Shown here: positions 17,516-33,936 of the stretch, piece after piece | Numbering within the stretch: position 1 is the first letter of the stretch | Layout: each line of letters starts with the position of its first letter | Assembly: GCA_027451225.1 (NCBI GenBank) | Contig: DAIDJU010000022.1 | Location: 1 to 52,421, forward strand | Origin: Acidocella sp. | GTDB lineage: Bacteria; Pseudomonadota; Alphaproteobacteria; Acetobacterales; Acetobacteraceae | DNA length: 52,421 nucleotides | Reading direction: 5' to 3' | Translations under genes and position numbers: made by a program | Notes under the pieces: model-generated | Databases searched by the model: none | The model's input: only the letters and a program-made list of their open reading frames with translations | What the model was told of the DNA's origin: nothing

Positions 17516-18255
17516 TCCAGCGTGAGTTCCGCACTCCCCCAGCGCCACAAGCGCAGGCGGGAAATGTCGAGCAGCGTCTCGCCTTGCATCGGGCGCAACT
17601 CCCCCACCGGGGGCTGAGCGTAGAGCGTCTCGCGCCGGGGCCAGCGGTAGGAGAGCAGCCACGTCCATGCCCCATGGCGCAGGTAAACCCAGGCCCAGCG
17701 CCGGGCCAGACATTCCGCCGGGCGGCGGGTTTCGCGCCGCGCCCAGCAGGGGGGGGCGGCGAGACGCCGGGCCAAAGGCAGGCTCAGCGGCGCGACGTAG
17801 TTGGAGAACCAGATCGTGAAGCCCAGCTCCGCCTGCAAGGCGCAAATGGCGCGATAGACCTGCACATGCTCCGGGTGGCCGTACTCGCCCCAAGGGTTAT
17901 GTGTAAATACATTGTCGTACCCCGCCAGCACCGGGCGCAGGGCCGTCACCAGCTTTGCAAAATTCGCCTCATAGCGCGCCCGCCCCTCGGCGTCGGCGAT
18001 CTCGACGCCATAAGGCGTGGGCTGGGTCGCCTCCCACGCCACCAACTTGCGCACGCCGCTTTCGGGGATTTGCAGATCGATAAGGTTGGGCAGGGCCAGC
18101 GCCGCCACGGCGCGGCGGCGGGCGGCGGAGCGTTTGGGGTTGCCGAACAGATCGCCAAAGCAGAACACGATGGTCTCCGCCCCCTTCAGGGCGGAACTCA
18201 GCCAGAGGATTTCGTCATCCGGGTGCGCCACCACCACGGCGTTGCGGCCCTGCAT
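17512..18255 (-). CDS. PIG-L/LmbE-family deacetylase
   Basis: 247-residue Zn-dependent N-acetylglucosamine-type deacetylase. The metal site is complete: AHPDDE (His11, Asp13, Asp14) and EYGHPEHVQ (His126, His129). Family members remove the acetyl group from GlcNAc-phosphatidylinositol (PIG-L) or GlcNAc-inositol (MshB) and related sugars. It is the fourth gene of the acp-spt-GT4-PIG-L operon, overlapping the GT4 stop by one base. Because the same region encodes inositol-lipid genes, a substrate such as GlcNAc-inositol-phosphoceramide is a reasonable inference, though lipid A-like or polysaccharide substrates cannot be excluded. The C-terminal 80 residues are unusually rich in Arg and Trp. Confidence 0.88.
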   Translation of the reverse strand: MQGRNAVVVAHPDDEILWLSSALKGAETIVFCFGDLFGNPKRSAARRRAVAALALPNLIDLQIPESGVRKLVAWEATQPTPYGVEIADAEGRARYEANFAKLVTALRPVLAGYDNVFTHNPWGEYGHPEHVQVYRAICALQAELGFTIWFSNYVAPLSLPLARRLAAPPCWARRETRRPAECLARRWAWVYLRHGAWTWLLSYRWPRRETLYAQPPVGELRPMQGETLLDISRLRLWRWGSAELTLD

Positions 18256-19415
18256 CAGGGCTTATCCAGCAGCGAGTCGTAGAGCTCTTCCAACACCGCC
18301 GTCTGCCGCGTGATGTCGAAGTTTTGCACCGCGCGGGCGCGGGCTGCCTCGCCCAGTTTCCGGCGCAGGGCTTCATCGCCCAACAACATGGCGAGGCGTG
18401 CGCCCAAAGCCTCCGGGTCGCGCTCTGGCACCAGGAAGCCGGTTTCACCATCCGCCACCACCTCGGGGATGCCGCCCAGCGACGAGCCGATCACCGGCAC
18501 GCCGGTGGCCGCCGCTTCCAGCGTGACCATGCCCAGCCCCTCGACCCGGCCGGACGAAGTGCGCACGCTGGGCAGCACCAGCATGGCGGCGCGGCGCATA
18601 TGCGCCAACACCTGCGCGTGCGGCATCGCGCCCAGAAACGCCACGCGCTCGGCCACGCCGCAAGCTTGCGCCAGCTTCTCCAGCTTGGCGCGCAATGGGC
18701 CATCGCCAATGATGACCAGCCGGGCTTTGGGATGGTGGGGGGCAGCCAGGGCAAAAGCGCGGATCAGGTATTCCGTGCCCTTCACCTCAACCAACCGGGC
18801 GACGTGCAGGATTTCCAGCGCCTCTTCCTCGGGCGTGCGCGGGATGATCGCGCCGCAATCCACGCCGATATAATGCACGCGCGTGCGCTCAGGGGGAAAG
18901 CCCATGCCCAGTAGCCGTTCGCGGATGAAGCCCGAGGCGCAGAGGAACAGATCGCCATAACGCGCCAGGCGCGAGCGGCCCAGCGCGTAATGCGTATAGG
19001 CCGGTGAGGCCAGCAAGGCGGCGGTGGAGAGTGTCGCGTCGAACCCATGGAAGGTGGTGACGAGCGGGATGCCAAGGCGCTTGGCCACCGGCAGGGCATA
19101 AACGCCCTCCACCCCAAAATGCGCATGGATCAGCGCCGGGTGCCGCCCTTTCAGCAGGCGCAAATACGGGGCGGGGTCCAGTGTGAGCATCTGCCGGGCG
19201 ACGAAGGGGATCGGCCAGCCTTTCACCAGATCCGCCAGCGCCAGCGATTCCGCCCCTGGCGGGGGGGCGCCGTAGCGCAGCCGCCCGACGTAAAGCGGGT
19301 GGTAGCGGCGCAGATGCTCCGCCTGCTCGGTAATGAACGGCTCCGACACCTTGAACAGATTGTGCCGGAAGATGGCGACTTCGCGCAAAGCGGGCGCGGG
19401 CGGGGTTCCGCCCAT
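18255..19415 (-). CDS. GT4-family glycosyltransferase of the spt operon
   Basis: 386-residue GT-B enzyme. N-terminal domain: VAIFRHNLFKVSEPFITEQAEHL, then LIHAHFGVEGVYALPVAKRLGIPLVTTFHGFD. C-terminal donor domain: EILHVARLVEVKGTEYLIRAF, RLVIIGDGPLRAKLEKLA, VAFLGAMPHAQVLAHMRRA and the E-x7-E type loop EGLGMVTLEAAATGVPVIGS. It starts four bases after the spt stop and ends overlapping the PIG-L start, so it belongs to the sphingolipid operon. A GT4 followed by a PIG-L deacetylase is the same pairing as PIG-A/PIG-L in GPI anchors and MshA/MshB in mycothiol. GlcNAc transfer to an inositol lipid is the suggested but unproven reaction. Confidence 0.85.
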   Translation of the reverse strand: MGGTPPAPALREVAIFRHNLFKVSEPFITEQAEHLRRYHPLYVGRLRYGAPPPGAESLALADLVKGWPIPFVARQMLTLDPAPYLRLLKGRHPALIHAHFGVEGVYALPVAKRLGIPLVTTFHGFDATLSTAALLASPAYTHYALGRSRLARYGDLFLCASGFIRERLLGMGFPPERTRVHYIGVDCGAIIPRTPEEEALEILHVARLVEVKGTEYLIRAFALAAPHHPKARLVIIGDGPLRAKLEKLAQACGVAERVAFLGAMPHAQVLAHMRRAAMLVLPSVRTSSGRVEGLGMVTLEAAATGVPVIGSSLGGIPEVVADGETGFLVPERDPEALGARLAMLLGDEALRRKLGEAARARAVQNFDITRQTAVLEELYDSLLDKP

Positions 19416-19419
19416 GCCT

Positions 19420-20664
19420 TTACTTCGCGGTGGCGAGGACGGGTTCGCCCTGGCTCTTCGCTCCAGCCGCGGGGATCAGCCCCAACTCGCGCCCGGCCTC
19501 GGCGAACATGGCGATGGCATGGTCGATCTGCGCCGGGGTATGCGCCGCGCTCACGGAAGAGCGCAGCAGCGCGAGGCCCTTCGGCGTGGCTGGGGGCAGG
19601 CTGACATTGGTGTAGAGCCCGCCATGCAGCAGCCGCGCCCAGAAGGCGAAGGCGGCTTCCGGCGAGGGCATGACGGTGGAGACCACCGGGCTCGGCTCGG
19701 GCCCGACGGTGAAGCCCAGGGCGGCCAAGCCGTCATACAGGCGGTTGGCGTTCTCGGTGAGCTGGCGGCGCAGCGCCGGGCGGGTCTGCAACTGGTGCAA
19801 GGCTTCCAGCGTGGCGGCGATGACGCCGGGCGGCAGCGAGGCCGTGAACATATAAGGCCGGGTGACGACACGCAGAATGTCGAAGCCCTCGGCATCGCTG
19901 ACGCAGAACCCGCCGACGCCGCCCAGGCTCTTGGAGAAGGTGCCGACGACGAAATCCACATCCGCCTCGACGCCCGCCGCCTCGGCCAGACCGCGCCCGT
20001 TCTCGCCCAGCACGCCCAGCGAATGGGCTTCGTCCACCACCAGATAAGTGTCCGGGTAGCTGCGCTTCACCGCCGCGAATTCCTTCAGCGGCGCGGTGTC
20101 GCCCAGCATGGAGTAGATGCCCTCGACCACGATGACCTTGTCGCCCGGCGTGTCCTTCAGGCGGCGCAGGCGGTTGTCCAGATCCTCGGGGCTGTTGTGG
20201 CGGAAGCGCGTGACCTGCGCGTAGCCCAGACGGGCGCCGTCATAGATGCTGGCATGCGAATCGGCATCCAGGATCAGGTGATCGTCCTTGCCCGCCAGGG
20301 TGGAGAGCATGCCGAGATTGGCCTGATAGCCGGTGGAGAACACCATGCCGTGCTTGCGGTTGAAATACCCCGCCAGCGCCTGCTCCAGCTCCTGGTGCCC
20401 GGCATAGCTGCCATTGGCGATACGCGAGCCGGTGGTGCCGGTGCCGTACCGTTCGGTGGCTTCCACCGCCTTGGCGATGACGGCGGGATCGTAGGTCAGG
20501 CCCAGATAATTATTCGTGCCCAGCAGCAGGACCGATCGGCCTTTGAGCATCGCCTCGGTGGGCGAGAGCACGGAGTCGAACGACACGTTGAAGGGATTCG
20601 CGCCCGCTTCCTCAAGCTGACGGTACTGCGCCGCCAGGGACGCGAACTTGGTAAACAGCGACAT
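19420..20664 (-). CDS. spt: Serine palmitoyltransferase (alpha-oxoamine synthase)
   Basis: 414-residue PLP enzyme that condenses L-serine with a fatty acyl thioester to 3-ketosphinganine, the committed step of sphingolipid synthesis. Signatures include NNYLGLTYDP, GTGTTGSRIANGSYAGHQELEQALA, DADSHASIYDGARL (ring-stacking His), VVVEGIYSMLGDTAPL, DEAHSLGVLGENGRG and the PLP lysine in GTFSKSLGG (about Lys245). Related KBL and ALAS enzymes share the fold, but the immediately upstream dedicated ACP and the nearby ceramide genes favour SPT. The start is ATG 20664, three bases after the acp stop; TTG 20667 is the alternative. Soluble, homodimeric type as in Sphingomonas. Confidence 0.9.
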   Translation of the reverse strand: MSLFTKFASLAAQYRQLEEAGANPFNVSFDSVLSPTEAMLKGRSVLLLGTNNYLGLTYDPAVIAKAVEATERYGTGTTGSRIANGSYAGHQELEQALAGYFNRKHGMVFSTGYQANLGMLSTLAGKDDHLILDADSHASIYDGARLGYAQVTRFRHNSPEDLDNRLRRLKDTPGDKVIVVEGIYSMLGDTAPLKEFAAVKRSYPDTYLVVDEAHSLGVLGENGRGLAEAAGVEADVDFVVGTFSKSLGGVGGFCVSDAEGFDILRVVTRPYMFTASLPPGVIAATLEALHQLQTRPALRRQLTENANRLYDGLAALGFTVGPEPSPVVSTVMPSPEAAFAFWARLLHGGLYTNVSLPPATPKGLALLRSSVSAAHTPAQIDHAIAMFAEAGRELGLIPAAGAKSQGEPVLATAK

Positions 20665-20667
20665 CAA

Positions 20668-20919
20668 CTAGGAGCCAGCCCTCAAATTTTGCATGGCCGC
20701 GATCAGGTCGCCGACCGTTTCAATCTCAGCAATCTTGTCGAGCGGCACGGAGATATCCAGCCGGTCCTCGATCTCCATCACGAAATCCATGACCGCGACG
20801 GAATCCAGGCCCAGATCCTCGACAATGTGCGTATTCTCGGTGATCTCAACCGGTTTGGGCAAAGACGAGCGCAACGTCTCGAAAATGATCTCACGGATAT
20901 CCCCGACCAAACCACCCAT
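20668..20919 (-). CDS. Acyl carrier protein for sphingolipid synthesis
   Basis: 83-residue acyl carrier protein. Ser40 in DLGLDSVAVMDFVMEIEDRL is the phosphopantetheine site; the helical pattern and acidic character are typical. I chose ATG 20919 (MGGLVGDIRE) behind AGGGA; an upstream in-frame ATG at 20979 would add a Gly/Arg-rich 20-residue leader unlike ACPs. Placed first in the acp-spt-GT4-PIG-L operon, it is the counterpart of the special ACP adjacent to spt in Caulobacter and Sphingomonas, loaded by a fatty acyl-AMP ligase such as the one at 27675-29414 and feeding acyl chains to Spt. Confidence 0.9.
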   Translation of the reverse strand: MGGLVGDIREIIFETLRSSLPKPVEITENTHIVEDLGLDSVAVMDFVMEIEDRLDISVPLDKIAEIETVGDLIAAMQNLRAGS

Positions 20920-21118
20920 GTCCCTGCCGCCAAATCTGTTGAGAGAACCCGCCAACACAGGCGCCAAACGCCCGTACATGACAAATTCATATCACCGCCT
21001 ATACATGGCACGGCAAATTATTTAAAGAGCGGGCAGGTCGTAGGGGCTGTCTTTTACCGGCACGCCCGTGGCCGCCCTTGCGCCGCGAGCTGCCCAGGGG
21101 CTCCGCCAAGGCACCGGC

Positions 21119-22267
21119 ATGGCCGGGAATGAATGGTTTAACGCTTTGATCCTCAACCGTTATATCGCCCGGGACATCAGCCGGCCATTCGCCGTCATCC
21201 TCGGCATTCTCTGCGTGCTGTTCACAGGCTACTCCGTCGCCTCCATCCTCTCGGACGCGGTGAGCGGCCTGCTGCCCACCCTCACCATCATGGAGCTGAC
21301 CGGGCTCAAGCTGCTCATCGCTCTGGATGTGCTGATCCCCATCTCGCTCTATTTCGCGGTGCTGCTCTCCTTCGGGCGGCTCTATGCGGATAGCGAGTTC
21401 ACCGCCATGGCGGCCCTTGGGGTGCAGCCCTGGCAGGTGATGCGGGTCGTGCTCTCCTTGGCCGGCATGGTGGCCCTGGTGGTCGCGCTGCTCTCCTGCG
21501 AGGCGCGCCCCTGGGCGTACCGCACCTCGCACGACGTAACCTGGCACGGCGCCACCAGCCTGGACGTGAACGCCATGCAGGCCGGCACCTTTTACACCAG
21601 CGAGGACGGGCAGCGCGTCATCTTCCTCACCCACCGGGCCGGGCCGGGCACGCCGGCGCAGGATGTGTTCGTCCGCCGCCAGCTGGCCGACCATGTCGAG
21701 GTGATCTTCGCCAAGCTGGCCTCGTCTTTGCAGCAGACCGCCGCCAGCGGCCAGCATGAGGTCTATCTGACCGATGCACATGTTTACGAGATCTACCCCC
21801 CCGGAAGCGCGCAGAAAGACCAGCTCCTCAACGCGCAAGGGCTGATCCTCGACCCCGAGAGCGCGCCCGGCGCGGCGCCCGGCTACAACCCCATCACCGC
21901 CGACAGCCTGGACCTCGCCCACTCCACCTCCCCGCGCGATATCGCCGAGCTGGAATGGCGGCTCTCCACCCCCATCTCCACCCTGCTGCTGGCCCTTCTG
22001 GCCATACCGCTGAGCTACACGCGGGTGCGCCAGGGCAAATACGCCAAGTTCGGGGAGGCGATCCTGATCTACGCCGGGTATTACCTGCTCTGCACCACGG
22101 CCCGCACCTGGGTGGAACACGGGATGATCGGCACGCTGCCGGGCATCTGGTGGGCACCCGGGATGCTCTCGCTGGTGCTCGCGCTGATTCTGGCCCTGCC
22201 GCATTGGCGCAACCGGCAAGCCGCCAAGGCCCGGACCGCCGCAGCCGCGAAGGCCAACGCCGCATGA
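21119..22267 (+). CDS. LptF/LptG-family (YjgP/YjgQ) permease, LptF-like
   Basis: 382-residue inner-membrane protein with three N-terminal helices (ILNRYIARDISRPFAVILGILCVLFTGYSVASIL; LKLLIALDVLIPISLYFAVLLSFGRLYADSEFTAMAALGVQPWQVMRVVL), a periplasmic beta-jellyroll domain (about residues 125-270) and three C-terminal helices (STPISTLLLALLAIPLSYTRVRQGKYAKFGEAILIYAGYYLL). This is the LptB2FG transporter architecture, which extracts lipids from the inner membrane. I start at ATG 21119, where the family N terminus begins, rather than the upstream in-frame ATG. It is transcribed divergently from acp-spt, so it could serve LPS, sphingolipid, or both. Confidence 0.87.
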   Translation: MAGNEWFNALILNRYIARDISRPFAVILGILCVLFTGYSVASILSDAVSGLLPTLTIMELTGLKLLIALDVLIPISLYFAVLLSFGRLYADSEFTAMAALGVQPWQVMRVVLSLAGMVALVVALLSCEARPWAYRTSHDVTWHGATSLDVNAMQAGTFYTSEDGQRVIFLTHRAGPGTPAQDVFVRRQLADHVEVIFAKLASSLQQTAASGQHEVYLTDAHVYEIYPPGSAQKDQLLNAQGLILDPESAPGAAPGYNPITADSLDLAHSTSPRDIAELEWRLSTPISTLLLALLAIPLSYTRVRQGKYAKFGEAILIYAGYYLLCTTARTWVEHGMIGTLPGIWWAPGMLSLVLALILALPHWRNRQAAKARTAAAAKANAA

Positions 22268-23343
22268 AGCTGCTCGACCACTATATAGCCGCCACGGTGC
22301 TGCGCGGCTTTCTGCTGATCCTCGCGGTGCTGACGGTGCTGTTCAGCCTGCTCGCCTTTGTCGAGCAGCTCGGCTTTGTCGGCCAGGGGCAATACACCGC
22401 CAAGGACGCGCTGATCTGCATGGTGCTCACCGCCCCTTACCGTGTGGTGCAGATCGCCCCCGTTTCCATGCTGCTTGGCGCGCTGCTGGCGCTCGGCGGG
22501 CTCGCGCGCAATTCCGAGCTGATCGCCTTCCGCGCCCTGGGCGTGTCGGAGATGCAGATCGTCGGGGCGCTGATGAAGCTCTCGGTGCCGGTGATCGTCG
22601 CGCTGTTCCTCATCGCGCAATTTGTCATCCCGCCGGGGCAGCTCATGGCCCAGCATGTGCAAGCCGAGGCCTCGGGCGAGGCCGCCCCCTTGCGCAGCGC
22701 CGGGGGCTTCTGGGTGGAGCGAGATCACCAGTATCTGAACGTGCAGCGCTTCGGCTACGGCAACACGCCGGAGAATATCGACATCTACACCTTCAACGCC
22801 GATGGCAGCCTGAACAGCTACACCCACGCCAAGCGCGCCGAGGTGGAGCCCGACGGCACATGGATGCTGGTCGGCGTGCTGCAAAAAACCGCCGACTCCA
22901 CGCATTTCAACACCATCACGCTGGATGAGATGCCCTGGCCGTCCTTCATCTCCTCGCACCAGATGCGCCTGCTGATGCTGCCGCCGGAGATGATGCCGCC
23001 CCTCGCGCTGTATAAATATATCGGCGAGCGCAAACGCCTGGACCAGCAGGCCCAGCGCGATGAGCTGACCTTCTGGAGCATGATCAGCGTGCCGTTCTCA
23101 CTGCTCGGCATGGCGATGATCGCCACCCCCTTCGTGTTCGGCGTGCAGCGCATGCAAAGCGCTGGGCGGCAGCTGCTGATCGGCGCGGTCCTGGGCATCA
23201 TGTTCCAGGTCGGCCAGCAGGTGATCTTCTATCTCGGCCTGCGGCTTAGCCTGAATCCAGCCATCACGGCGCTCGCGCCCTCGGCGGCGCTGCTGGGGGC
23301 GGCTGCGTATCTGATCCGCCGGATGCAGGTGGAGTTGCGGTAA
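22264..23343 (+). CDS. LptF/LptG-family permease, LptG-like
   Basis: 359-residue partner of the preceding protein. N terminus MKLLDHYIAATVLRGFLLILAVLTVLFSLLAFVEQL, coupling-helix region LIAFRALGVSEMQIVGALMKLS, a periplasmic jellyroll (about 130-265) and three C-terminal helices (SMISVPFSLLGMAMIATPFVFGVQRMQSAGRQLLIGAVLGIMF). The start overlaps the previous stop (ATGA), so the two are translated as a coupled pair. No ATPase LptB or LptC is visible here, so the pair must share an ATPase encoded elsewhere. It converges with the CDP-alcohol phosphotransferase gene with only three bases between. Confidence 0.88.
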   Translation: MKLLDHYIAATVLRGFLLILAVLTVLFSLLAFVEQLGFVGQGQYTAKDALICMVLTAPYRVVQIAPVSMLLGALLALGGLARNSELIAFRALGVSEMQIVGALMKLSVPVIVALFLIAQFVIPPGQLMAQHVQAEASGEAAPLRSAGGFWVERDHQYLNVQRFGYGNTPENIDIYTFNADGSLNSYTHAKRAEVEPDGTWMLVGVLQKTADSTHFNTITLDEMPWPSFISSHQMRLLMLPPEMMPPLALYKYIGERKRLDQQAQRDELTFWSMISVPFSLLGMAMIATPFVFGVQRMQSAGRQLLIGAVLGIMFQVGQQVIFYLGLRLSLNPAITALAPSAALLGAAAYLIRRMQVELR

Positions 23344-23346
23344 GCG

Positions 23347-24267
23347 TTACAGCCGAGCCGCGTGGTCGAGGAACAGCTGGTAGCGGCGGCGCTGGCCAGC
23401 CTGGAGCCAGAGCATGATGGCGCTGAAGCCAAAGATCTCGAACAGGAAATAGAACATCGGCATGCCCGCCACCGCGAACAGGAAAATCCCGATCGTGCGG
23501 TAATTCGCCGATAGAATCGCCCAGCGCCGGACAGACGGAGCGAATACCTCGCGGTAATCCTGGCGCAGCGCGGTCTCGCAGCCCGGCTTGACGGCAAGGA
23601 TTGCCTCCAGCTCCTGGTTGAACCCGGCAGCGCCGCCCGAGACCGCGATCTGCACCCGCGTATACAGCCCGTGCAGCAGATTGGCCGCGCGCTTCAACAA
23701 GGGCTGATCTTTCAGCGCATCCTTGGGCGGATGCAGATCCGCCAGCGCCGCGGATTTGCGCCCCCAGCCCCAGAAATTATATTGCTGGCGCTGCAGCTCA
23801 TAAGTAGCCGATTGCAGCGCGTGGCACAGCGCCGCCACCGCCGCCAGCCCCCACACCCAGGTGCCGACATAGCGGCTAAGCGTGAACGCCAGCCCCAGAT
23901 AGACGGCGCCGAAGGTCACGTAATCGCAAATGCCGTCGATGATCTTGCCCAGCTCGGAGAAGGAGTTGGTCATCCGGGCGAGCTGGCCGTCCGCGCCATC
24001 CAGCACATGCCAAGCGAACATCAGCGCGAAGCCGAGCAGGCAAACCCAGGGATGCGGATACCAGTGATACGCCACACCCGCCGCCACGCCGCAGGCCATG
24101 CCGGCCAGCGAGACGACATTGGGCGTAATGCCCAGCCGCGCGCAGATGGGCACGATCCGCGCGGAAAGCGGATGGACGATGTATAGGTTGGTCGGTTCCT
24201 CGATCTCCGAGGTGCGGCGGACAGGCTCGGCCTGCGCCGCCATACCGCCGGGAATGTCCTGCTGCAT
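23347..24267 (-). CDS. CDP-alcohol phosphotransferase (inositol-lipid head-group transferase candidate)
   Basis: 306-residue membrane enzyme of the CDP-alcohol phosphatidyltransferase family. The catalytic motif DG-x2-AR-x8-G-x3-D-x3-D is intact (Asp93, Gly94, Ala97, Arg98, Gly107, Asp111, Asp115). About six helices surround it, with a soluble insert at about 165-245. It is the last gene of a three-gene unit after inositol-phosphate synthase and an IPCT-like cytidylyltransferase, eight bases after the latter. With CDP-inositol as donor, the expected reaction is transfer of inositol-phosphate to a lipid hydroxyl; ceramide or a glyceride is the likely acceptor. Start choice between ATG 24267 and 24243 is open. 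Confidence 0.87.
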   Translation of the reverse strand: MQQDIPGGMAAQAEPVRRTSEIEEPTNLYIVHPLSARIVPICARLGITPNVVSLAGMACGVAAGVAYHWYPHPWVCLLGFALMFAWHVLDGADGQLARMTNSFSELGKIIDGICDYVTFGAVYLGLAFTLSRYVGTWVWGLAAVAALCHALQSATYELQRQQYNFWGWGRKSAALADLHPPKDALKDQPLLKRAANLLHGLYTRVQIAVSGGAAGFNQELEAILAVKPGCETALRQDYREVFAPSVRRWAILSANYRTIGIFLFAVAGMPMFYFLFEIFGFSAIMLWLQAGQRRRYQLFLDHAARL

Positions 24268-24275
24268 GGCGGGGA

Positions 24276-26528: not shown

Positions 26529-27497
26529 TCACGCTAATCCTGGCAAGCCGTGCAGGGCGGAACAAACTAACGCACTGTAAAGCTGACTATCCCGGTGCTC
26601 GCGCACATAGCCGGGGCTAATGCGCGCGACATAAGGTTTGCTGCGCACCGAGGCATACCAATGCACAACCCTGGTATCCGGCGGCAGAACCTGCTCCAGC
26701 CTGGGGCGGCGGCTGGGCCTGAACCAGTGCTCCGAAATCTCCGGCGCCAGGGGGTAGAACACCGGCGGCGGATGGATGGTAAGCTCCTCCGCAGGGTAAT
26801 GGCTGATCAGCGCTTGAAGCAGATCCGGCCCCAGGGCGTAGGGTTCTGTCTGGCGCTCCTGGGGCAGCTCGAGCATGGCGCGCAAATAGGCCCGGAACAG
26901 CGCCGCACCCGGAGCGGCCCCCATCACGGCGTTATTCACGCCGGGGAAATACCACTCCTCGACCAGCCGAAAGGCGCGCCAACCGCCAGGAAGCAGGCGC
27001 ATGGCCTTGCGCAGCACGTCGAGCGTGAGATGCTTGGCCCAAACGGCCGGTGAGCGCGAACTGCGCACCGCATGCGGCCAGACAATGAACTCGGAGCCCA
27101 CAAATTGGGGCGCGCCGAGCAAAGGCCGCAGCGAGGCGACTGTAATGGTATCCAGGTCGAGATAGATCCCGCCATCAAGATACAGAATGGCGGCGCGCAG
27201 CACGTCTGCTCGCTGCACGGGGCTGGTCAGCCTTGCGTAAAGCGCGGTCAGGCCGCCGCCGACTCCAAGCCGCTCCTGCACCTGGGCAAGACGGGCCATG
27301 GGATCGGTCAGCTCCAGCCGCACGCCCGAGGCCGCGCGCAGGGCGCGCAGCTCGGGGCCGTCTTCCAGCTCGTCGGTATGGTGCAGGACGACTTCGTCCA
27401 TGCCGCCGCGCTCGGCGGCGGACAGCACGGCAAACACGTAAGCCCAAGGAAGGCGCTTGCCGATCCAGCAGAAATGGACGCAGGCGGGAATGGTCAT
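26529..27497 (-). CDS. GT32-like glycosyltransferase with DXD motif
   Basis: 322-residue glycosyltransferase of the 'sugar-binding region containing DXD' type. N terminus IPACVHFCWIGKRLP is the classic IPKxIHxxW-like opening; the core is SPVQRADVLRAAILYLDGGIYLDLDT, with Asp114-Leu-Asp116 as the metal/nucleotide-sugar DXD, followed by VNNAVMGAAPG and ALGPDLL. Yeast mannosyl-inositol-phosphoceramide synthases (SUR1/CSH1) belong to this family, notable because the gene lies just upstream of the inositol-lipid unit. ATG 27497 is preferred on homology grounds although the ribosome site is poor; TTG 27530 is possible. Donor and acceptor are unproven. Confidence 0.82.
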   Translation of the reverse strand: MTIPACVHFCWIGKRLPWAYVFAVLSAAERGGMDEVVLHHTDELEDGPELRALRAASGVRLELTDPMARLAQVQERLGVGGGLTALYARLTSPVQRADVLRAAILYLDGGIYLDLDTITVASLRPLLGAPQFVGSEFIVWPHAVRSSRSPAVWAKHLTLDVLRKAMRLLPGGWRAFRLVEEWYFPGVNNAVMGAAPGAALFRAYLRAMLELPQERQTEPYALGPDLLQALISHYPAEELTIHPPPVFYPLAPEISEHWFRPSRRPRLEQVLPPDTRVVHWYASVRSKPYVARISPGYVREHRDSQLYSALVCSALHGLPGLA

Positions 27498-27605
27498 AGG
27501 AGGGCCGTTTGCCAGTAAGGGGGGACGCAAATGGGCGGGGTAGATAGGCTGGCGCCGGATCAGCCGTCAACCGCCCCCCGCCTGACGCCAAGCTGGCCTT
27601 ATTGT

Positions 27606-27620: not shown

Positions 27621-27674
27621 CCAACCCGACTCTGTTAGCCCGGAAAGCCGTATCAACGCCTTATCCCCTCAGGT

Positions 27675-29414
27675 ATGACAGAGCTATCGCCAACCGGTTT
27701 CTCCGGGCAAACCATACGTTACGCCGACTTCGGCACAATTGCCGAGGCGCTGGACTATGCCGCCCAAGGCAGTGCCGGGTTCAATTTTTACTCAGGCAAG
27801 GGTCAGCTGGTGGAAACCCTGCCCTACAGCGCGCTGCGCGAGCAGGCGCTTGGCCTTGCCGCGCGCATGCTGGGCGCTGGGCTAAAGCCGGGAGATAAGG
27901 TCGCGCTGATCGCCGAGAGCGATGGCGACTTCACCCGCGCCTTCTTTGCCTGCCAATATGCCGGGCTGGTGCCCGCCCCGCTGCCGCTGCCCGCGGCCTT
28001 CGGCGGCAAGGACGGTTATATCGCGCATCTGCGCCGCATGGTCACCAGCGCCCATGCCGTGGCGCTGCTCGGCCCGGCCGTGCTGGAAGCCTGGCTTGCA
28101 GAGACCGCCGAAGGGCTGAATCTGCGCCTTGCCGGCACCTTCTCGCTGCTCGACAACATAGCCCCGAGCAGCCAGCCCCTGCCGGCGCAGGCCGCCAATT
28201 CCCTCGCTTATCTGCAATTCTCCTCGGGCAGCACGCGTTTCCCGCTGGGTGTTGCGGTTACGCAACACGCCTTCATGGCCAACGCCCATTACATGGCGCT
28301 CTACGGCCTGCAGGTGACCGAGCAGGACCGCTGCACCACCTGGCTGCCCTATTATCACGACATGGGGCTGGTCGGCTTCTTCCTGATGCCGATGGCTTGC
28401 CAGCTTTCAGTGGATGTCCTGCCAACTCGCGAATTCGCCCGCCGTCCGCTCCTCTGGCTGGACCTGATCGGCCGTAACCGCGGCACCGTGTCGTTCAGCC
28501 CGTCCTTTGGCTACGAGCTGTGCGTGCGCCGGGCCGAGACCGCCTCCATCGAGGGGCTGGATCTCACGAGCTGGCGCCGCGCGGGTATTGGCGGCGACAT
28601 GGTTCGCCCCGCCGTGCTCACCCGCTTCGCCGAGCGCTTTGGCCAGCAGGGCTTCTCCACCGGCGCTTTCGTGCCCTGCTACGGCATGGCAGAGGCGACG
28701 CTGGCGCTCAGCTTCACCCCGCCCGGCCAGGGCGCGCTGGAAGATGTCATCGACGGCACCATCCTCGAGGATGAGCACCGCGCCGTGCCCGCCCATGCGG
28801 GCAGCACGCGCACCCGCAGCTTCGTGCTGTGCGGGCGTATGCTCCCTGACCACGAGGCCGAGGTGCGCGACGAAAACGGCGAGCTGCTGCCGGACCGGCA
28901 GGTGGGGCGCATCTATGTGCGCGGCCCCAGCCTGATGCTCGGCTATTACAACGAGCCGGATGAGACCGCCCGCGTGCTGGACAAGGATGGCTGGCTGGAT
29001 ACCGGCGATCTCGGCTATTTCCTCGACGGCCAGCTCGTCATCACCGGCCGCGCCAAGGATCTGATCCTGGTGAATGGCCGCAATGTGTGGCCGCAAGACC
29101 TGGAATGGGCCGCCGAAGCGGACATGCCCCTGCTGCGCAGCGGCGATGTCGCGGTGTTCTCGGTCGATAACGGCGCGCATGAGGAGGTTGTGGTGCTGGT
29201 GCAATGCCGCACCACAGACCCGGCGGGGCGCGAGGCGATGATCCACGACATCACGAAGTTCTTCCGCGGCCGCCACGGCCTGGAGACCCATGTGGTGCTG
29301 GTGCCGCCGCGCAGCCTGCCGCAGACCTCCTCTGGCAAGCTCAGCCGCAGCCGCGCCCGCGTGATGTATCTCGAAGGCGCCTTCCAACCGGCCAAGACCT
29401 CCAACGCGGCATGA
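27675..29414 (+). CDS. Fatty acyl-AMP ligase / acyl-ACP synthetase
   Basis: 579-residue adenylate-forming enzyme of the fatty acyl-AMP ligase group. Motifs: P-loop FSSGSTRFPLGVAVTQ (near 182), TWLPYYHDMGLVGFFLMP, FVPCYGMAEATLALSF, GRIYVRGPSLMLGYYNEPDETARV, WLDTGDLGYF and the C-terminal lysine region RSLPQTSSGKLSRSRAR. It activates a fatty acid with ATP and passes it to a carrier protein. In Caulobacter an equivalent acyl-ACP synthetase loads the ACP used by Spt, which fits the acp at 20668-20919. It overlaps the ceramide-reductase-type gene by four bases (ATGA), so activation and reduction steps are co-expressed. Confidence 0.87.
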   Translation: MTELSPTGFSGQTIRYADFGTIAEALDYAAQGSAGFNFYSGKGQLVETLPYSALREQALGLAARMLGAGLKPGDKVALIAESDGDFTRAFFACQYAGLVPAPLPLPAAFGGKDGYIAHLRRMVTSAHAVALLGPAVLEAWLAETAEGLNLRLAGTFSLLDNIAPSSQPLPAQAANSLAYLQFSSGSTRFPLGVAVTQHAFMANAHYMALYGLQVTEQDRCTTWLPYYHDMGLVGFFLMPMACQLSVDVLPTREFARRPLLWLDLIGRNRGTVSFSPSFGYELCVRRAETASIEGLDLTSWRRAGIGGDMVRPAVLTRFAERFGQQGFSTGAFVPCYGMAEATLALSFTPPGQGALEDVIDGTILEDEHRAVPAHAGSTRTRSFVLCGRMLPDHEAEVRDENGELLPDRQVGRIYVRGPSLMLGYYNEPDETARVLDKDGWLDTGDLGYFLDGQLVITGRAKDLILVNGRNVWPQDLEWAAEADMPLLRSGDVAVFSVDNGAHEEVVVLVQCRTTDPAGREAMIHDITKFFRGRHGLETHVVLVPPRSLPQTSSGKLSRSRARVMYLEGAFQPAKTSNAA

Positions 29415-30364
29415 CCCGCCCCCTGGTCGCCGTTACCGGCGCGACGGGGTTTCTCGGCCTGCATCTGATAGCGGCCCTTGCGCAAGCGGGGGCCGATATC
29501 CGTATTCTGGCGCGGCATGATCCGGCGCATGAATTCTGGGATGGGCTAAGCTTCGAGACCGTCCGGGGCAGCCTGGAGGATGAGGCCGCCCTCACCCGCC
29601 TGGTCAAAGGCGCTGATACCGTCATTCACGCCGCCGGGCTGATCAAGGCGCTGGACCGCGCCACATTTCTCAACACCAATCGGGACGGCACGGAGCGCGT
29701 GGCCAGAATTGCCAGGCGCCATGCCCCAGCTGCGCGGTTCATCCTTGTCTCGTCCCTCGCCGCGCGTGAAGCACGGCTTTCCTCCTATGCCTTCAGCAAG
29801 CGCGCGGCCGAGGACGCGGCGCGGCTGGTCTATGCGGATGCGCCGGACCGCCTGGTCATCATCCGCCCGCCCGCCATTTACGGTCCGTGGGACCGCGAGA
29901 CCCTGGCGATTTTCAAGACCGCCAAGGTCCCCATCGTGCCGCTGGTCAGCCGGGGGCGCATGGCGATGATCCACGTCTCCGACGCCGCCGCCGCCATTGC
30001 GCGACTTGCGCTGGGCGCTGGCGAGGCCGGGCTTTATGCTTTGGCCGATAGCCGCCCGGAAGGCTACGAAATGCTCGAATTGCTGGCCGAGGCGGCTTGC
30101 GCGGTCGGCCGGAAGCAGCCGCGTTTTGTGCCAATGCCGCCCGCACTGATACGTCTGGCGGGGCGCGCCTCGGGCGCGTGGGGGCGGCTGCGCGGGCAGG
30201 CCCCGGTGTTCACGGCGGAGAAGGCGGAGGAGATTTTGCACCTGGATTGGTCGATAACCCCCGCCGAGGCGCTGCCCGGCTCCGTGTACCAGCCTCGCCT
30301 CGGCTTGACCGAGGGGTTTCGGGAGACCGTCGCCTGGTACAGGGAAAAGGGCTGGCTGCGCTGA
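29411..30364 (+). CDS. NAD-dependent epimerase/dehydratase-type ceramide reductase candidate
   Basis: 317-residue extended short-chain dehydrogenase. The NAD(P)-binding loop GATGFLG is at residues 10-16, and the catalytic Tyr126-x3-Lys130 (YAFSK) follows the SSLAAREARLSS serine strand. TVIHAAGLIKA and IIRPPAIYGPWD are typical of the family. In bacterial ceramide synthesis an SDR of this kind (CerR) reduces the 3-keto group of the acylated sphingoid base. The gene is translationally coupled to the acyl-AMP ligase and faces the N-acyltransferase gene tail-to-tail. A sugar-nucleotide substrate is the alternative, but the context argues for ceramide. Confidence 0.83.
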   Translation: MTRPLVAVTGATGFLGLHLIAALAQAGADIRILARHDPAHEFWDGLSFETVRGSLEDEAALTRLVKGADTVIHAAGLIKALDRATFLNTNRDGTERVARIARRHAPAARFILVSSLAAREARLSSYAFSKRAAEDAARLVYADAPDRLVIIRPPAIYGPWDRETLAIFKTAKVPIVPLVSRGRMAMIHVSDAAAAIARLALGAGEAGLYALADSRPEGYEMLELLAEAACAVGRKQPRFVPMPPALIRLAGRASGAWGRLRGQAPVFTAEKAEEILHLDWSITPAEALPGSVYQPRLGLTEGFRETVAWYREKGWLR

Positions 30365-30372
30365 CAAGGATA

Positions 30373-30397: not shown

Positions 30398-30421
30398 CAG
30401 CCAAAAACCTGTTGGCAGTTA

Positions 30422-31552
30422 TTACAGCGGCTTTTCGTAGATCCGGTAGGTTTTGTAGGCCTGCGAGCCCAGACTCTCATTCATCCGCCGCATCGGCAGA
30501 TTATCTTCGAGAATCCAGGACAGCTCGATATGGGTGAAGCCCTGCGCCAGCCCCTGCTTGCGCACGGCATCGACCATCAGGAAGGGCAGCAGGCTGCCGA
30601 TCATGTCGTTGGCCGCCGAGCGGCGCACGCCCATCAGCGGCACGCGAGCGGTTTTCACCCCGCTCACCTTCAGCCGCCACAGCAGCTTGGCCCAGCCGAA
30701 GGGCAGCAGCTTGCCGTTCAGGTCGCGGATCGCCTCGTTGATATTGGGCAACGCGATGAGGAAGCCCACCGGCTCGCCATTGCGCTCCACCACGCTGGTC
30801 AAACGCGGGTCGAGCAGCGGCTTGAGCGATTTGGCGAGATAATCCGTCTCCGTCTCGGTCAGCGGTACGAAGCCCCAGTTATTCACCCAGGCATCGTTGA
30901 AGATGCTGGTGACGGTGCGGATTTCCTCGTTATAGCGCTTGAAGTCGAGCTGGCGGACGATGAGGTCCGGCGGCAGCGGGCGGGCGAGCAGGCGGCGCAC
31001 GCTGGCGGGCAGGTCCACGGTCATGTCGTAGAGATAGGCGTAAACGTCCTTCTCCTTGACCAGCCCGTATTCTTCCAGCCGGGGGCCAATATAGGGCTTG
31101 TCATGACCCATCAGCAGCATGGGCGGCGTGTCGAACCCCGCCACCAGCAGCCCGGTCTCCTCGTTGATGTTCAGGTTGAACGGCCCCTGCATGCGCACCA
31201 TGCCGCGCTCACGCAGCCAAGCGGCGGCGGTGTCCAGCAGGGCGGTGAAGATAGCCGGGTCGTTCTCGGCGGCGATCATGCCGAAGAAGCCGGTGCCGTC
31301 CGGGCGCAGGGCCAGGGCTTGTTTGTCGAGCTGGGCGCTGATGCGCCCGACATCGCGGCCATCGCGCTCGGCCAGCCAGAACTGCACCTCGGCATGGCCG
31401 AAGAACGGGTTCTTCGGCGTCAGTGCCTCCTGGCGCTCCATGTGCAGCGGCGCGATGTAATGTGGATCATCCCGATGCAGCCGTTCGGGGAGACGGATGA
31501 AGCGGTTCAGCAGCGCCCGCCCGGTGACCGGGATGATCCGGATTTCGCTCAC
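30422..31552 (-). CDS. Bacterial ceramide synthase-type N-acyltransferase (GNAT-like)
   Basis: 376-residue soluble protein of the GNAT-like family that includes bacterial ceramide synthase bCerS. Recognisable stretches: FIRLPERLHRDDPHYIAPLHMERQEALTPKNPFFGHAEVQFWLAERDGRDVGRISAQ near the N terminus, GFFGMIAAENDPAIFTALLDTAAAWLRERGMVRMQGPFNLNINEETGLLVAGFDTPPMLLMGH in the middle, and a second half with FNDAWVNNWGFVPLTETE and LSWILEDNLPMRRMNESLG. The enzyme N-acylates the sphingoid base from acyl-CoA and is unrelated to eukaryotic ceramide synthases. Its start overlaps the stop of the hydroxylase gene by four bases, linking N-acylation with hydroxylation. Confidence 0.85.
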   Translation of the reverse strand: MSEIRIIPVTGRALLNRFIRLPERLHRDDPHYIAPLHMERQEALTPKNPFFGHAEVQFWLAERDGRDVGRISAQLDKQALALRPDGTGFFGMIAAENDPAIFTALLDTAAAWLRERGMVRMQGPFNLNINEETGLLVAGFDTPPMLLMGHDKPYIGPRLEEYGLVKEKDVYAYLYDMTVDLPASVRRLLARPLPPDLIVRQLDFKRYNEEIRTVTSIFNDAWVNNWGFVPLTETETDYLAKSLKPLLDPRLTSVVERNGEPVGFLIALPNINEAIRDLNGKLLPFGWAKLLWRLKVSGVKTARVPLMGVRRSAANDMIGSLLPFLMVDAVRKQGLAQGFTHIELSWILEDNLPMRRMNESLGSQAYKTYRIYEKPL

Positions 31553-32340
31553 AGAGCCTCCGCCGCCGCAGATTCACGCTCCAGTCCGGAAGGGGGTCTG
31601 TCACGCGGCGGGCTGCCGGTGATCTCCATCACCCAGGGGTAGCGCTTCGCCTCTTCCAGGTCATAGCCCAGGTTGAACACGGTCGGGCTTTTCGCACAGT
31701 CGCGCGCGGTGGCGGCGAAGCTGTGGAAGATGTAGTCCGGCGTGAAGCTGACGATGCCCATGTTCACCTTCTCGCTATAGAAATGGTGCAGCATATGGTC
31801 GCGCTTGAGCTTCTGGATGAACTTGTTCTTGGGCTTGTAGTTCAGGTGCTGGATGCAGTGGAAGAACTCATACACGCAGGTGGTGACGAGCGCGGTGGAG
31901 AAGGCCGCCGTGCCGCCCGCCCAGCCGCCAATGGCATAGCCGATCGGCCCGGTGATGATGAGCATGGTGGGGATGGTGTTCAGCGGCGAGCCGAACAGCA
32001 CTTCCAGCAGATGCGGGTCCTGGTGATGGTCGAAATGGATGCGCTTCCACAGCCCGGCGGTGAATTTCATCCGGTACAGCCAACGGCCGTGCAGGACAAA
32101 GCGGTGCAGCCCGTACCAGACGAAGGGGTAAACGAGGCACACGGCCAGAATCGGCAGGACGATGTCCTGCCAGCGTGCCGCCAGACTGAGCGCCGCGCCG
32201 CCGGAGATCACGGCCAGGAAGGCGTACAGATTGATCGCCGGGTAGGTCAGGTAAGCCCGCCAAAGATCGGGCAGGGCCATGCGCCCGAGATCATAGCTTC
32301 GGCCATGCCAAGCCCGGCCCCACACAAGTTTTTCCGCCAT
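31549..32340 (-). CDS. Fatty acid hydroxylase / sterol desaturase-family membrane enzyme
   Basis: 263-residue di-iron membrane hydroxylase. Four hydrophobic segments frame the histidine clusters: HRFVLH (His79, His84), HFDHHQDPH (His102, 105, 106, 110), HCIQH (His161, 165) and HMLHH (His182, 185, 186). The family includes ceramide fatty-acyl 2-hydroxylases and sphinganine C4-hydroxylases. Acetic acid bacteria are known to contain 2-hydroxy-acyl dihydroceramides, so alpha-hydroxylation of the N-acyl chain is the best guess. It is coupled to the ceramide synthase-type gene downstream; the reaction needs oxygen and an electron donor not encoded here. Confidence 0.86.
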   Translation of the reverse strand: MAEKLVWGRAWHGRSYDLGRMALPDLWRAYLTYPAINLYAFLAVISGGAALSLAARWQDIVLPILAVCLVYPFVWYGLHRFVLHGRWLYRMKFTAGLWKRIHFDHHQDPHLLEVLFGSPLNTIPTMLIITGPIGYAIGGWAGGTAAFSTALVTTCVYEFFHCIQHLNYKPKNKFIQKLKRDHMLHHFYSEKVNMGIVSFTPDYIFHSFAATARDCAKSPTVFNLGYDLEEAKRYPWVMEITGSPPRDRPPSGLERESAAAEAL

Positions 32341-32427
32341 GCTGTATTACCCTGTTCTGCAGGCGCGGTATCCCGCGTCTCACCGTGGGTGGATAGCAGC
32401 GCCGCCCACGGCTGGCAAATGAGGCGG

Positions 32428-33936
32428 CTAGCCGGATAATTGGGCTTTTGCGGGGCTTGGAACCCAGACATCGATTTCCGGCGTATGCAAGGCGAGGCTG
32501 TAATGCTGCGCCAGAGCCTGGAGAAACGCCTTGGAGAATCGGAACGTGTGCTTTGAGGCTCCACGGTCGGTATCGCCAATCTCCACCGCGGCGAAACGCT
32601 GGGACTCGACCATGGCCACGAACTCCCGCGGGTCTAGCTTATGGAGGCTGATCTGGTCCTGAACGTAATAGGGGTCGAACGCGGAAGGCTTGCCCGCCTC
32701 GTCGCACATCAGCAGGTTCTCGCACACCACGGGGCCGGAAGCTTGGCGCAGCAGCCCCACACCGGCGGCAAAATCAGCCTCGTGCCGGGGCAGCGCCCTC
32801 CATTCGGCGGCCCCGGAGACAATGCTGTTCGGCAGCTTGCTCAAGGGAAACAGGATCTGGCTGAGCGGAAACAGCATGGGCAACACGCAAAGCAGCGCGG
32901 CCCGGCCCGGTGTTGCGCGCCCCTGAACTGCAAAATAATCAGCGCAGGCGATGACGCTGATGACCGCGTCCATCAGGATTGCCTCGAAGAATATGTTGCG
33001 GCTCACGCCGTCGCCCCCCGCCCAGGCAAAGGCCAGGAGATGCGCGACCAGCCAGCTCCAGGCCAGCGGGGCGCGGCGCTCGTCGCGCCAGTTGCGCCAG
33101 GACCACACGCCGCCAAGCAGCACGAAGGGCAGGAAGATGATCAGATAGGTGCCGATATTGTGCAGCGCGTCGCCGAGGCTACAGGCGCGAGGCTGGAGCA
33201 TGTTGGCCAGGAAATAGGGGCCGTCGAGCCGCAGCGTGACCCAGAACAGCGCCGCCGCAGCCAGCAGGCCCGCGCCAACCCAAAGCACAAGCCGCCGCCA
33301 GTCCCACCTGGCCAGCAAGGCGAGCCCCGCCCCCAGCGGCAAGGCCAGCAGATTATGCTTGGTGAATACCGCCAGGGCGAAAAGCGGCGCGCTGCGCCAG
33401 CCATTCTGGCCGCGGTGCACGGCACGGAGAAAACCGTAAAGCCCCAGCAGCTCGAACACCATGCCAAGCAGTTGCGGATCGTTCACGCCGATCCGGCGCG
33501 GCATCCACATTTCCAGCCATAGCGCAAAGAGCAGCCCGGCGCAGATGCCCGCATACCGGGCCGGAACAAAGAGCCGCACCAGCGCGCCCACCAGCACACA
33601 CACCGCCACCAGCGCGGCCAGAGAGAGAAACCGCCCAGTCTCGTTGACATTGCCGGTCAGAAGGCTGAGCAGGCCGACAATATGAAAGGAGAGCGGCGGG
33701 TAATTGGTGATGTCCCCCCCCGGCGGGCTGGCGTAAAGCGGCAGGAACTGCGCGGCCTGCTGCTGGCGGAAGGCGTTCCAGCCCTCATCATAGTCGAACT
33801 GCACCACGGCGGTGCTGCGCAGCACAAGCGGCCAGCCGATGACCGTGACAAGTAGCGTAAGCAGCGCCGCAGCGGTGCTCCATATGCGCTGGGAGGAGCG
33901 CGCGATGACGGCGGGCAGTCCGGCTTGGTCGAACAA
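32428..33936 (-). CDS. GT-C/ArnT-like membrane glycosyltransferase
   Basis: 502-residue integral membrane protein with about 10-12 helices and a soluble C-terminal domain (from about residue 385). The periplasmic first loop carries the acidic FDYDEGW motif (near residue 48) typical of GT-C enzymes such as ArnT/PMT, which use polyprenyl-phosphate sugars, and NYPPLSFHIVGLLSLL follows. The start is TTG 33936, supported by a good GGGAGAGAG ribosome site. It reads in the same direction as, and lies 87 bases before, the hydroxylase and N-acyltransferase genes, so it could glycosylate an exported sphingolipid or a surface glycan. No substrate can be read from sequence. Confidence 0.8.
   Translation of the reverse strand: MFDQAGLPAVIARSSQRIWSTAAALLTLLVTVIGWPLVLRSTAVVQFDYDEGWNAFRQQQAAQFLPLYASPPGGDITNYPPLSFHIVGLLSLLTGNVNETGRFLSLAALVAVCVLVGALVRLFVPARYAGICAGLLFALWLEMWMPRRIGVNDPQLLGMVFELLGLYGFLRAVHRGQNGWRSAPLFALAVFTKHNLLALPLGAGLALLARWDWRRLVLWVGAGLLAAAALFWVTLRLDGPYFLANMLQPRACSLGDALHNIGTYLIIFLPFVLLGGVWSWRNWRDERRAPLAWSWLVAHLLAFAWAGGDGVSRNIFFEAILMDAVISVIACADYFAVQGRATPGRAALLCVLPMLFPLSQILFPLSKLPNSIVSGAAEWRALPRHEADFAAGVGLLRQASGPVVCENLLMCDEAGKPSAFDPYYVQDQISLHKLDPREFVAMVESQRFAAVEIGDTDRGASKHTFRFSKAFLQALAQHYSLALHTPEIDVWVPSPAKAQLSG

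Follow-up and report, generated by a model that had tools for sequence, protein, structure and literature searches.

An Acidocella gene block with a predicted route to a glycosylated inositol-phosphoceramide

We analysed a stretch of 52,421 nucleotides (hereafter the window) that constitutes contig 22 (DAIDJU010000022.1) of an Acidocella genome of 2.6 Mb, 200 contigs and 97% completeness, and detected in it a block of genes in which a bacterial ceramide pathway is interleaved with genes for an inositol phosphate head group, glycosyltransferases, a PIG-L family deacetylase and a second pair of LptF/LptG permeases. Based on this gene content, we propose that the probable product of the locus is a glycosylated inositol-phosphoceramide, which would be exported, most likely as far as the outer membrane. 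As to the parts of this proposal, we are fairly confident that the predicted inositol head would be placed on ceramide, consider export by LptFG likely, and expect, with somewhat more reserve, that the lipid would be glycosylated, while the chances that the predicted sugar is glucosamine are about even.

A preliminary description of this DNA had proposed such a product for positions 18255..33936. Every gene that it named was found again, and confirmed, by Pfam and NCBIfam profile searches of the window proteins, to which we added a comparison with solved structure chains (Table 1). The core of the range was retained, while its left end had to be moved, as the PIG-L gene lies just outside it and a Wzx-like flippase and a second GT4 gene also belong to the block, which spans about 14798-33936. 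The gene set is real and not a product of chance, because the seven other cluster-bearing genomes of the genus keep it, most of them in near-identical order. Five of these seven show that order (L062-L066, these labels being our own handles for loci, and G numbers those for genomes; L065 is without a GT32 match), and the other two are rearranged with most genes kept (L067, without GT32 and hydroxylase matches, and L072/L073, on two contigs). Among the 80 nearest of 424 IPCT relatives, which were the ones kept, the closest named relative at the locus was A. aromatica DSM 27026 (93% identity for IPCT, 96% for Spt), and the named strains carrying the block were Acidocella aromatica DSM 27026, A. 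facilis ATCC 35904 and Nitrospirillum amazonense.

The head-group genes form a predicted CDP-inositol trio. The myo-inositol-phosphate synthase (MIPS) is the sole PF01658 match in the genome and gave 390 bits against the solved inositol-3-phosphate synthase 1gr0, which we take to be the Mycobacterium tuberculosis enzyme. For the neighbouring NTP transferase, the closest solved relatives (2xme and 4mnd, both titled as CTP:inositol-phosphate cytidylyltransferase, IPCT, and 4jd0) together with the kept active-site arginine, lysine and aspartate (R13, K21 and D106, invariant in 24/24 aligned orthologues) point to an IPCT. The NTP transferase of the Gluconacetobacter spt locus, in contrast, matched none of these three structures, and just the uncharacterised 2dpw. 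The structure 4jd0 is the Thermotoga IPCT, and CpgD, which has the same fold as IPCT, takes phosphoglycerate as its substrate (PMC12275187). The third gene encodes a CDP-alcohol phosphotransferase with the motif DGxDGxxAR...GxxxDxxxD, the catalytic columns of which were invariant in 20/20 aligned orthologues, and catalytic motifs were likewise intact across the homologues aligned for the other proteins. Its solved relatives are phosphatidylinositol phosphate (PIP) synthases, cholinephosphotransferases, AF2299 and others, while a fusion protein with di-inositol-phosphate (DIPP) synthase ranks among the last matches. In a metagenome-assembled genome (MAG) of the Desulfobacteraceae without an Spt match (L202:8961-10298), the IPCT and CDP-alcohol domains are fused in one protein of 445 residues that adjoins MIPS.

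A serine palmitoyltransferase (Spt) scoring above its family cut-off, with an acyl carrier protein (ACP) and an acyl-AMP ligase as neighbours, identifies an alphaproteobacterial ceramide cluster. The pyridoxal phosphate lysine motif of Spt (FSKSL) was kept in 28/28 aligned homologues, the GLDS motif of the ACP in 28 of 29, the YxxxK motif of the CerR-like reductase in 20/20 and the histidine motifs of the hydroxylase in 17/17. The solved matches of the CerR-like protein were led by the epimerase/dehydratase chain 9g83, followed mostly by NDUFA9-type subunits of complex I, and NDUFA9 homology has also been reported for the CerR of Caulobacter (PMC11087976). The bCerS-like protein, a putative counterpart of Caulobacter bCerS, had no significant match among solved structures.

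The distribution of these genes over genomes supports a link between the two parts of the block. We drew 299 genomes from the order, all belonging to a single family, and detected IPCT orthologues in 29 of them (E of 1e-78 or lower, with the following match at 4e-14). All 29 have MIPS, which occurs in 62 of the 299 overall, and 28 have Spt, which occurs in 164 overall. Spt was found in 11 of the 33 genomes having MIPS without IPCT, compared with the 28/29 having IPCT (Fisher p 1.3e-7, uncorrected for kinship, related genomes not being independent). The preliminary description had considered that inositol genes failing to co-occur with spt in related genomes would speak against it, and its proposal withstood this comparison. 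Twenty further IPCT genomes, mostly outside the family and including Nitrospirillum (L147), already known to be spt-linked, contained Spt in 16 cases at E 1e-90 or better. Besides, where Emcibacteraceae/Kordiimonadaceae-type genomes are without spt at the IPCT locus, Spt is present elsewhere in 11 of 12. In the Emcibacteraceae MAG L184 (L184:8877-15701), the genes that face MIPS-IPCT encode a Wzx-like protein, a protein of 372 residues without a Pfam family, a CDP-alcohol enzyme and an epimerase, and Spt is elsewhere in the genome. Within the genus, Spt, MIPS, IPCT and a bCerS homologue, together with four LptF/G genes, occur in 8/16 genomes, whereas the other 8/16 are without the first four (0/8 for bCerS) and have two LptF/G genes.

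The strongest indirect argument for a ceramide acceptor is that, in the cluster-bearing genomes, the predicted inositol module seems to occupy the place of the presumed ceramide-phosphate module of relatives. With the diacylglycerol kinase (DAGK)-type kinase of the Gluconacetobacter spt locus as query, no match at E 1e-8 was obtained in any of the 12 cluster-bearing genomes tested (the cluster of G157 being split between contigs), and therefore the inositol module comprises the only phospho-head-group genes seen in the cluster. The same query gave no match in G271, G058, G109 and G156. In total, the search covered 22 of the 29 IPCT genomes (all but seven Gluconacetobacter) and detected this kinase in 6 of them, as well as in 5/5 tested genomes with Spt without IPCT. 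The spt locus of Gluconacetobacter diazotrophicus (L075; G072:C1:3735000-3754999) encodes a diacylglycerol-kinase-like protein, a metallophosphatase, an NTP transferase, a GT4 and its own third LptF/LptG pair; this set resembles the ceramide phosphoglycerate genes of Caulobacter, here in an acetic acid bacterium, the genome of which has a separate inositol module. A further locus (L102:7357-17471, in G004) carries a divergent Spt-like protein (33% to the Spt of the window), a hydroxylase, a kinase homologue, a homologue of bCerS (40%) and an LptFG pair that is the second one, and may represent a further cluster of sphingolipid type.

Physical linkage of the ceramide and inositol genes, with LptFG, GT4 and mostly PIG-L, was observed in Acidocella, genera g64 and g8, Nitrospirillum, Azospirillum sp. 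B4, an Elstera MAG and several other MAGs, the gene order being shuffled between lineages and families while much of the content persists. We scored 82 IPCT loci (80 named ones plus L069 and L071, without the near-copy L070). Spt reached at least 300 bits in 28 of them, and another 4 break off within the spt gene; where more than 8 kb was available on both sides, Spt was present in 16/43. The ACP gene was found in 27 of the 28 spt-linked loci. PIG-L occurs in 23/28 of them, three of the other five ending close by, while it occurs in 1/27 full-flank loci scored without Spt, and that one (L146) is cut off inside spt. We also considered a repeated independent assembly of this linkage, given that the Spt tree (46 rows, without duplicates of loci and Spt pieces under 250 bits) has its Spt-linked rows in three separate positions and that the IPCT tree (58 of the 82 loci, 24 with short flanks and no Spt being left out) requires the linkage label to change 5 times. 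Repeated assembly is not claimed, because a single clade of Spt-linked rows was not rejected and loss of the linkage explains the trees equally well.

The sugar-modifying genes suggest what might be added to the inositol. The solved matches of the GT4 next to spt include BshA (5d00), a phosphatidylinositol (PI)-mannoside mannosyltransferase (3oka) and a D-inositol-3-phosphate glycosyltransferase (7qsg), and its NCBIfam scores were 125 bits for BshA and 102 bits for MshA, both below the cut-offs. BshA and MshA each work with a PIG-L-family deacetylase. The PIG-L protein of the block kept AHPDDE in 24/24 and HxxH in 25/25 aligned homologues, and its best solved match, MshB, was not significant (E 0.15). 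The DxD motif of the GT32 was kept in 31/31 homologues, its gene is present in 14/28 spt-linked loci, and the yeast MIPC synthase is a member of the GT32 family. The second GT4 (GT4b) adjoins LptFG in Gluconacetobacter and Wzx elsewhere and, wherever an IPCT locus outside A. aromatica contains it, shows 56-74% identity, and a Wzx-like gene was found in 17/28 spt-linked loci, many of which end early. The GT-C-like protein is the least conserved member of the block, with 29-42% identity outside A. aromatica, where found.

The LptFG-like pair described earlier is present, although its position beside sphingolipid genes is no novelty, as LptC2/F2/G2 adjoin the sphingolipid genes of Caulobacter (PMC11324152). 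Within the genus, the extra pair is restricted to cluster-bearing genomes, and we consider it a sphingolipid-dedicated LptF2/G2 pair, with export itself being predicted. LpxC was detected in 40/40 genomes tested, and therefore lipopolysaccharide is probably also made; a replacement of lipopolysaccharide by the sphingolipid in this lineage was rejected on the same grounds.

Table 1. Genes of the lipid block in the window, with predicted functions and profile or structure matches.
Feature	Position	Strand	Match
GT4b, second GT4 glycosyltransferase	14798..16042	+	Pfam Glycos_transf_1 59.5 bits
Wzx/MOP-type lipid flippase	16046..17515	+	Polysacc_synt_3 164.5 bits; NF007773 MOP flippase 133.8 bits, below cut-off 273
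PIG-L family de-N-acetylase, predicted to convert GlcNAc- to GlcN-inositol lipid	17512..18255	-	PF02585 33.7 bits, cut-off 28.2
GT4 glycosyltransferase of MshA/PIG-A-like predicted function, placing GlcNAc on inositol phosphate	18255..19415	-	Pfam 146.8 bits
Serine palmitoyltransferase (Spt)	19420..20667	-	NF047599 661 bits, cut-off 500; solved SPT chain 2x8u 449.6 bits
Acyl carrier protein, probably dedicated to Spt	20668..20979	-	PF00550 47.1 bits
LptF-type permease, second copy (LptF2-like)	21068..22267	+	TIGR04407 262.6 bits, cut-off 230
LptG-type permease, second copy (LptG2-like)	22264..23343	+	TIGR04408 307.6 bits, cut-off 240
CDP-alcohol phosphotransferase, predicted CDP-inositol:ceramide phosphoinositol transferase (inositol phosphoceramide, IPC, synthase)	23347..24267	-	PF01066 50.8 bits
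CTP:inositol-phosphate cytidylyltransferase (IPCT), predicted CDP-inositol producer	24276..24992	-	three best solved matches 2xme, 4mnd, 4jd0
myo-Inositol-phosphate synthase (MIPS)	24989..26185	-	PF01658 125.8 bits; 4-base overlap with IPCT gene
GT32-type glycosyltransferase	26529..27530	-	PF04488 38.6 bits, cut-off 23
Fatty acyl-AMP ligase, predicted ACP loader	27675..29414	+	PF00501 168.6 bits; NF006624 854.5 bits, cut-off 600
CerR-like ceramide reductase, NDUFA9-type short-chain dehydrogenase/reductase (SDR)	29411..30364	+	Epimerase 74.7 bits
bCerS-like ceramide synthase, GNAT fold	30422..31552	-	one weak Pfam match: PF00583 22.3 bits, cut-off 20.7
Fatty-acid/ceramide hydroxylase	31549..32340	-	PF04116 65.3 bits
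GT-C-like membrane glycosyltransferase, predicted periplasmic sugar addition	32428..33936	-	PMT_2 22.4 bits, below cut-off 26.1

The genes on both flanks look unrelated to the block. To the left are an ABC exporter with an HlyD protein, nadA and a gene for an FAD protein resembling nadB; two ABC ATPases, two ABC-2 permeases and the HlyD-type protein (9474-14608, minus strand) stand between the NAD genes and the lipid block, and HlyD adjoins the block in A. aromatica too. ATP-synthase genes begin on the right at 34728, in an ATP-synthase-like operon (34728-41098, minus strand) in which three proteins (34728-37790) were scanned, the b-type subunit (37059-37790) also matching the delta/OSCP family, and the arrangement of which resembles that of an N-ATPase.

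Based on the families present, we propose a theoretical biosynthetic scheme. The acyl-AMP ligase would load the ACP and Spt would join serine to the ACP-borne acyl chain; bCerS would add the second chain, CerR would reduce the keto group and the hydroxylase would add a hydroxyl. MIPS would convert glucose-6-phosphate to inositol phosphate, from which IPCT, using CTP, would form CDP-inositol in the cytosol, and the CDP-alcohol phosphotransferase would move phosphoinositol from CDP-inositol to ceramide with release of CMP. The acceptor would instead be keto-ceramide if CerR is periplasmic as in Caulobacter (PMC11087976). The GT4 would place GlcNAc on the inositol and PIG-L would deacetylate it to a glucosaminyl-inositol, GT32 and GT4b would add further sugars, the Wzx-like protein would flip the lipid, GT-C may add a sugar outside, and the second LptF/LptG pair would feed the product into the Lpt bridge. 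The head-group transfer would be of the Kennedy type, unlike the exchange with phosphatidylinositol carried out by AUR1. We prefer direct transfer over the synthesis of phosphatidylinositol followed by exchange because no AUR1-like PAP2_3 match exceeded the cut-off in the window's genome (where two weak generic PAP2 matches of 20-23 bits were seen), Pfam did not identify a HAD gene in the scanned set of window genes, and IPCT and the CDP-alcohol domain are fused in the Desulfobacteraceae MAG, which couples the two steps. A PAP2_3 match over the cut-off was found in 7/40 genomes tested.

Several observations weigh against the proposed product and have to be set beside an unlikely explanation, in which the inositol module and the ceramide pathway are independent neighbours and the former makes a PI-type glycerolipid from CDP-inositol and diacylglycerol, which might be glycosylated and then exported by LptF2/G2. 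An LptF-LptG-CDPAP-IPCT-MIPS module, with small differences, stands apart from spt in Gluconacetobacter, Acetobacter peroxydans, Lichenicoccus and others. In that first genus, each of 11 genomes contains six LptF/G genes, with one pair per locus where the places are readable, as if two lipids were exported separately. G058 carries the inositol module with no Spt by two queries in an assembly of 350 contigs, and a 38% bCerS homologue lies on a 3.9 kb contig of this genome; a hidden variant Spt was considered there and rejected, as the divergent Spt-like query from G004 gave just a 38% match, probably another oxoamine synthase. No Spt was found in the Desulfobacteraceae/Deltaproteobacteria MAGs L200, L202 (the one with the fused enzyme) and L203, nor in the alphaproteobacterial MAG L183; together with the separate Gluconacetobacter module and with G058, the former indicate that the inositol genes can exist without spt nearby or at all. 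The best NCBIfam scores of the CDP-alcohol enzyme were for enzymes with a CDP-lipid donor (PIP synthases), at a weak 53 and 46 bits against cut-offs of 180 and 170, and its solved relatives include cholinephosphotransferase 1, the acceptor of which is diacylglycerol. Diacylglycerol has also been proposed by Heaver et al. as the first acceptor for a comparable Bacteroidetes cluster (PMC9246714). The division of the genus into eight genomes with and eight without the block was rejected as strong co-inheritance: it represents one event, because the LpxC tree places the cluster-bearing genomes in one clade (93/92), and thus a single gain or loss of the whole block. A single clade of Spt-linked rows was not rejected (p-AU of the approximately unbiased test 0.052; subset 0.113; 40 rows after further near-duplicates were dropped). 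No PIG-L was found at the spt-linked loci of Azospirillum sp. B4 (L155) or the MAG L151, and the acceptors of GT4, GT32, GT4b and GT-C are predictions.

Because spt lies elsewhere in Gluconacetobacter and was not found in G058, a diacylglycerol acceptor keeps some probability. Against it stand the presence of Spt in 28/29 IPCT genomes of the order and in 11/12 Emcibacteraceae-type genomes, the lack of a match to the spt-associated kinase of relatives in 12/12 tested cluster-bearing genomes, and the near-confinement of PIG-L to spt-linked copies of the module. The Wzx, the GT4s and the GT-C in the block could also be read as a glycan assembly line, with CDP-inositol providing phosphoinositol for a surface polysaccharide or lipopolysaccharide, and the MIPS-IPCT locus of L184, near a Wzx-like protein, an epimerase and a CDP-alcohol enzyme, fits this reading. 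However, the substrates of the CDP-alcohol phosphotransferase family are lipid or small alcohols, Pfam recognised neither a polymerase nor a priming enzyme in the window genes that were scanned, and the tie to spt and LptFG would be left unexplained, so that we regard a glycan as very improbable, even though inositol has been found in a Bacteroides capsule (PMC9246714). A compatible solute, di-inositol-phosphate made by IPCT and a DIPP synthase, might be suspected from the archaeal IPCT/DIPPS fusion among the best IPCT matches and from the fused protein of the Desulfobacteraceae MAG, but for the CDP-alcohol enzyme the IPCT/DIPPS model gave just 26.8 bits and 4mnd 16.4, lower scores than those of the lipid enzymes, and a solute accounts for neither spt nor LptFG, which makes it extremely improbable. 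We give almost no credence to a mycothiol-like thiol, for which MIPS, GT4 (as MshA) and PIG-L (as MshB) would make GlcN-inositol: the model closest to MIPS is indeed that of the Ino1 associated with mycothiol (TIGR03450, 439 bits for a cut-off of 638) and the GT4 resembles BshA/MshA, but that route has no role for IPCT, the CDP-alcohol enzyme, spt or LptFG, and no MshC exceeded the cut-off in 8/8 genomes. Each of these has one match of 284-293 bits, which we take as cysteinyl-tRNA synthetase because the MshC search also matches 13/14 control genomes (over the cut-off in 1). A glycosylated inositol-phosphoceramide, as put forward in the preliminary description, is thus supported in part, namely by co-occurrence, linkage, the absence of the kinase and the near-restriction of PIG-L, with ceramide as the predicted acceptor.

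The proposed route can be compared with known systems. The earlier contrast with Bacteroidetes, according to which inositol is made there by other routes, was too sharp, as MIPS, an NTP transferase, a CDP-alcohol transferase and a HAD protein already constitute the alternative cluster of B. vulgatus/Prevotella, for which CDP-inositol has been predicted by Heaver et al. (PMC9246714). Both by description share MIPS adjoining a predicted CDP-inositol synthase and a CDP-alcohol transferase, in the Bacteroidetes case in bacteria shown to make inositol phosphoceramide, while the Acidocella block is without HAD among the genes scanned and adds ceramide genes, glycosyltransferases, PIG-L and LptFG; the function is a predicted one in both. 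In B. thetaiotaomicron (BT_1522-1526), MIPS likewise feeds inositol phosphoceramide, in this case through PI-phosphate, PI and an AUR1-like exchange (PMC9246714; PMC8791184), for which the Acidocella genome has no PAP2_3 match over the cut-off. A lipid with PI-ceramide-like fragments has also been reported for Novosphingobium acidiphilum, without homology to either Bacteroidetes cluster (PMC9246714). With the ceramide phosphoglycerate (CPG/CPG2) cluster of Caulobacter crescentus (CC_1152-CC_1168), the block shares Spt, bCerS, a CerR-type protein, a CDP-alcohol-domain protein and second copies of Lpt genes, LptC/F/G in the Caulobacter region (PMC11324152; PMC12275187; PMC11087976). The cytidylyltransferase CpgD, which makes CDP-glycerate and has IPCT as best structural match (PMC12275187), parallels the Acidocella IPCT. 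Compared by description, the head would be inositol phosphate in Acidocella as opposed to phosphoglycerate in Caulobacter, and MIPS, GT4, PIG-L and GT32 are added. CpgB is a bacterial ceramide kinase (PMC10331486), whereas no DAGK-type kinase was seen in the 12 cluster-bearing genomes, with the Gluconacetobacter kinase as query and not CpgB itself.

The predicted product belongs to the same class of sugar-inositol-P-ceramides as the glycosyl inositol phosphoceramides (GIPC) of fungi and plants, which depend on AUR1/IPCS and MIPC synthases; the transfer in Acidocella would be made from CDP-inositol by an unrelated enzyme, the CDP-alcohol phosphotransferase, and the ceramide by bacterial Spt, bCerS and CerR. 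In the synthesis of glycosylphosphatidylinositol (GPI) anchors, the first two steps are carried out by the GT4 PIG-A and then by the deacetylase PIG-L. The abutting GT4 and PIG-L genes beside the inositol-lipid genes predict a similar GlcN-inositol-phospholipid, with ceramide as the anchor in Acidocella, and the scanned window genes included none named as an ethanolamine-phosphate or a transamidase gene. A full counterpart of the fungal and plant GIPC in the outer membrane, that is, a glucosamine-inositol-phosphoceramide as a second glycolipid beside lipopolysaccharide, with GT4/PIG-L re-creating the first two GPI steps, GT32, flipping by Wzx and its own LptF2/G2, is a possibility that we put forward tentatively, at somewhat less than even chances. 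As far as the literature was searched, the joining of the CDP-inositol trio to an alphaproteobacterial ceramide core, GT4/PIG-L and its own LptFG, in several families, is new, and neither an experimental description of a CDP-inositol:ceramide phosphoinositol transferase nor, for these genera, a report of an inositol-phosphate fragment on ceramide was found in a search that covered few subscription journals.

Inositol sphingolipids are essential, drug-targeted lipids in fungi and important in plants, while in bacteria they have been shown by experiment above all in Bacteroidetes. If the proposal is true, the CDP-inositol route would be a second chemistry to the same product, and would also lend weight to the unproven B. 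vulgatus-type route. It would further suggest a shared ceramide core on which exchangeable modules install different head groups, such as phosphoglycerate in Caulobacter and phosphoinositol here, and would point to a lipid-specific LptFG exporter. As named strains carry the block, a direct test by lipidomics is feasible.

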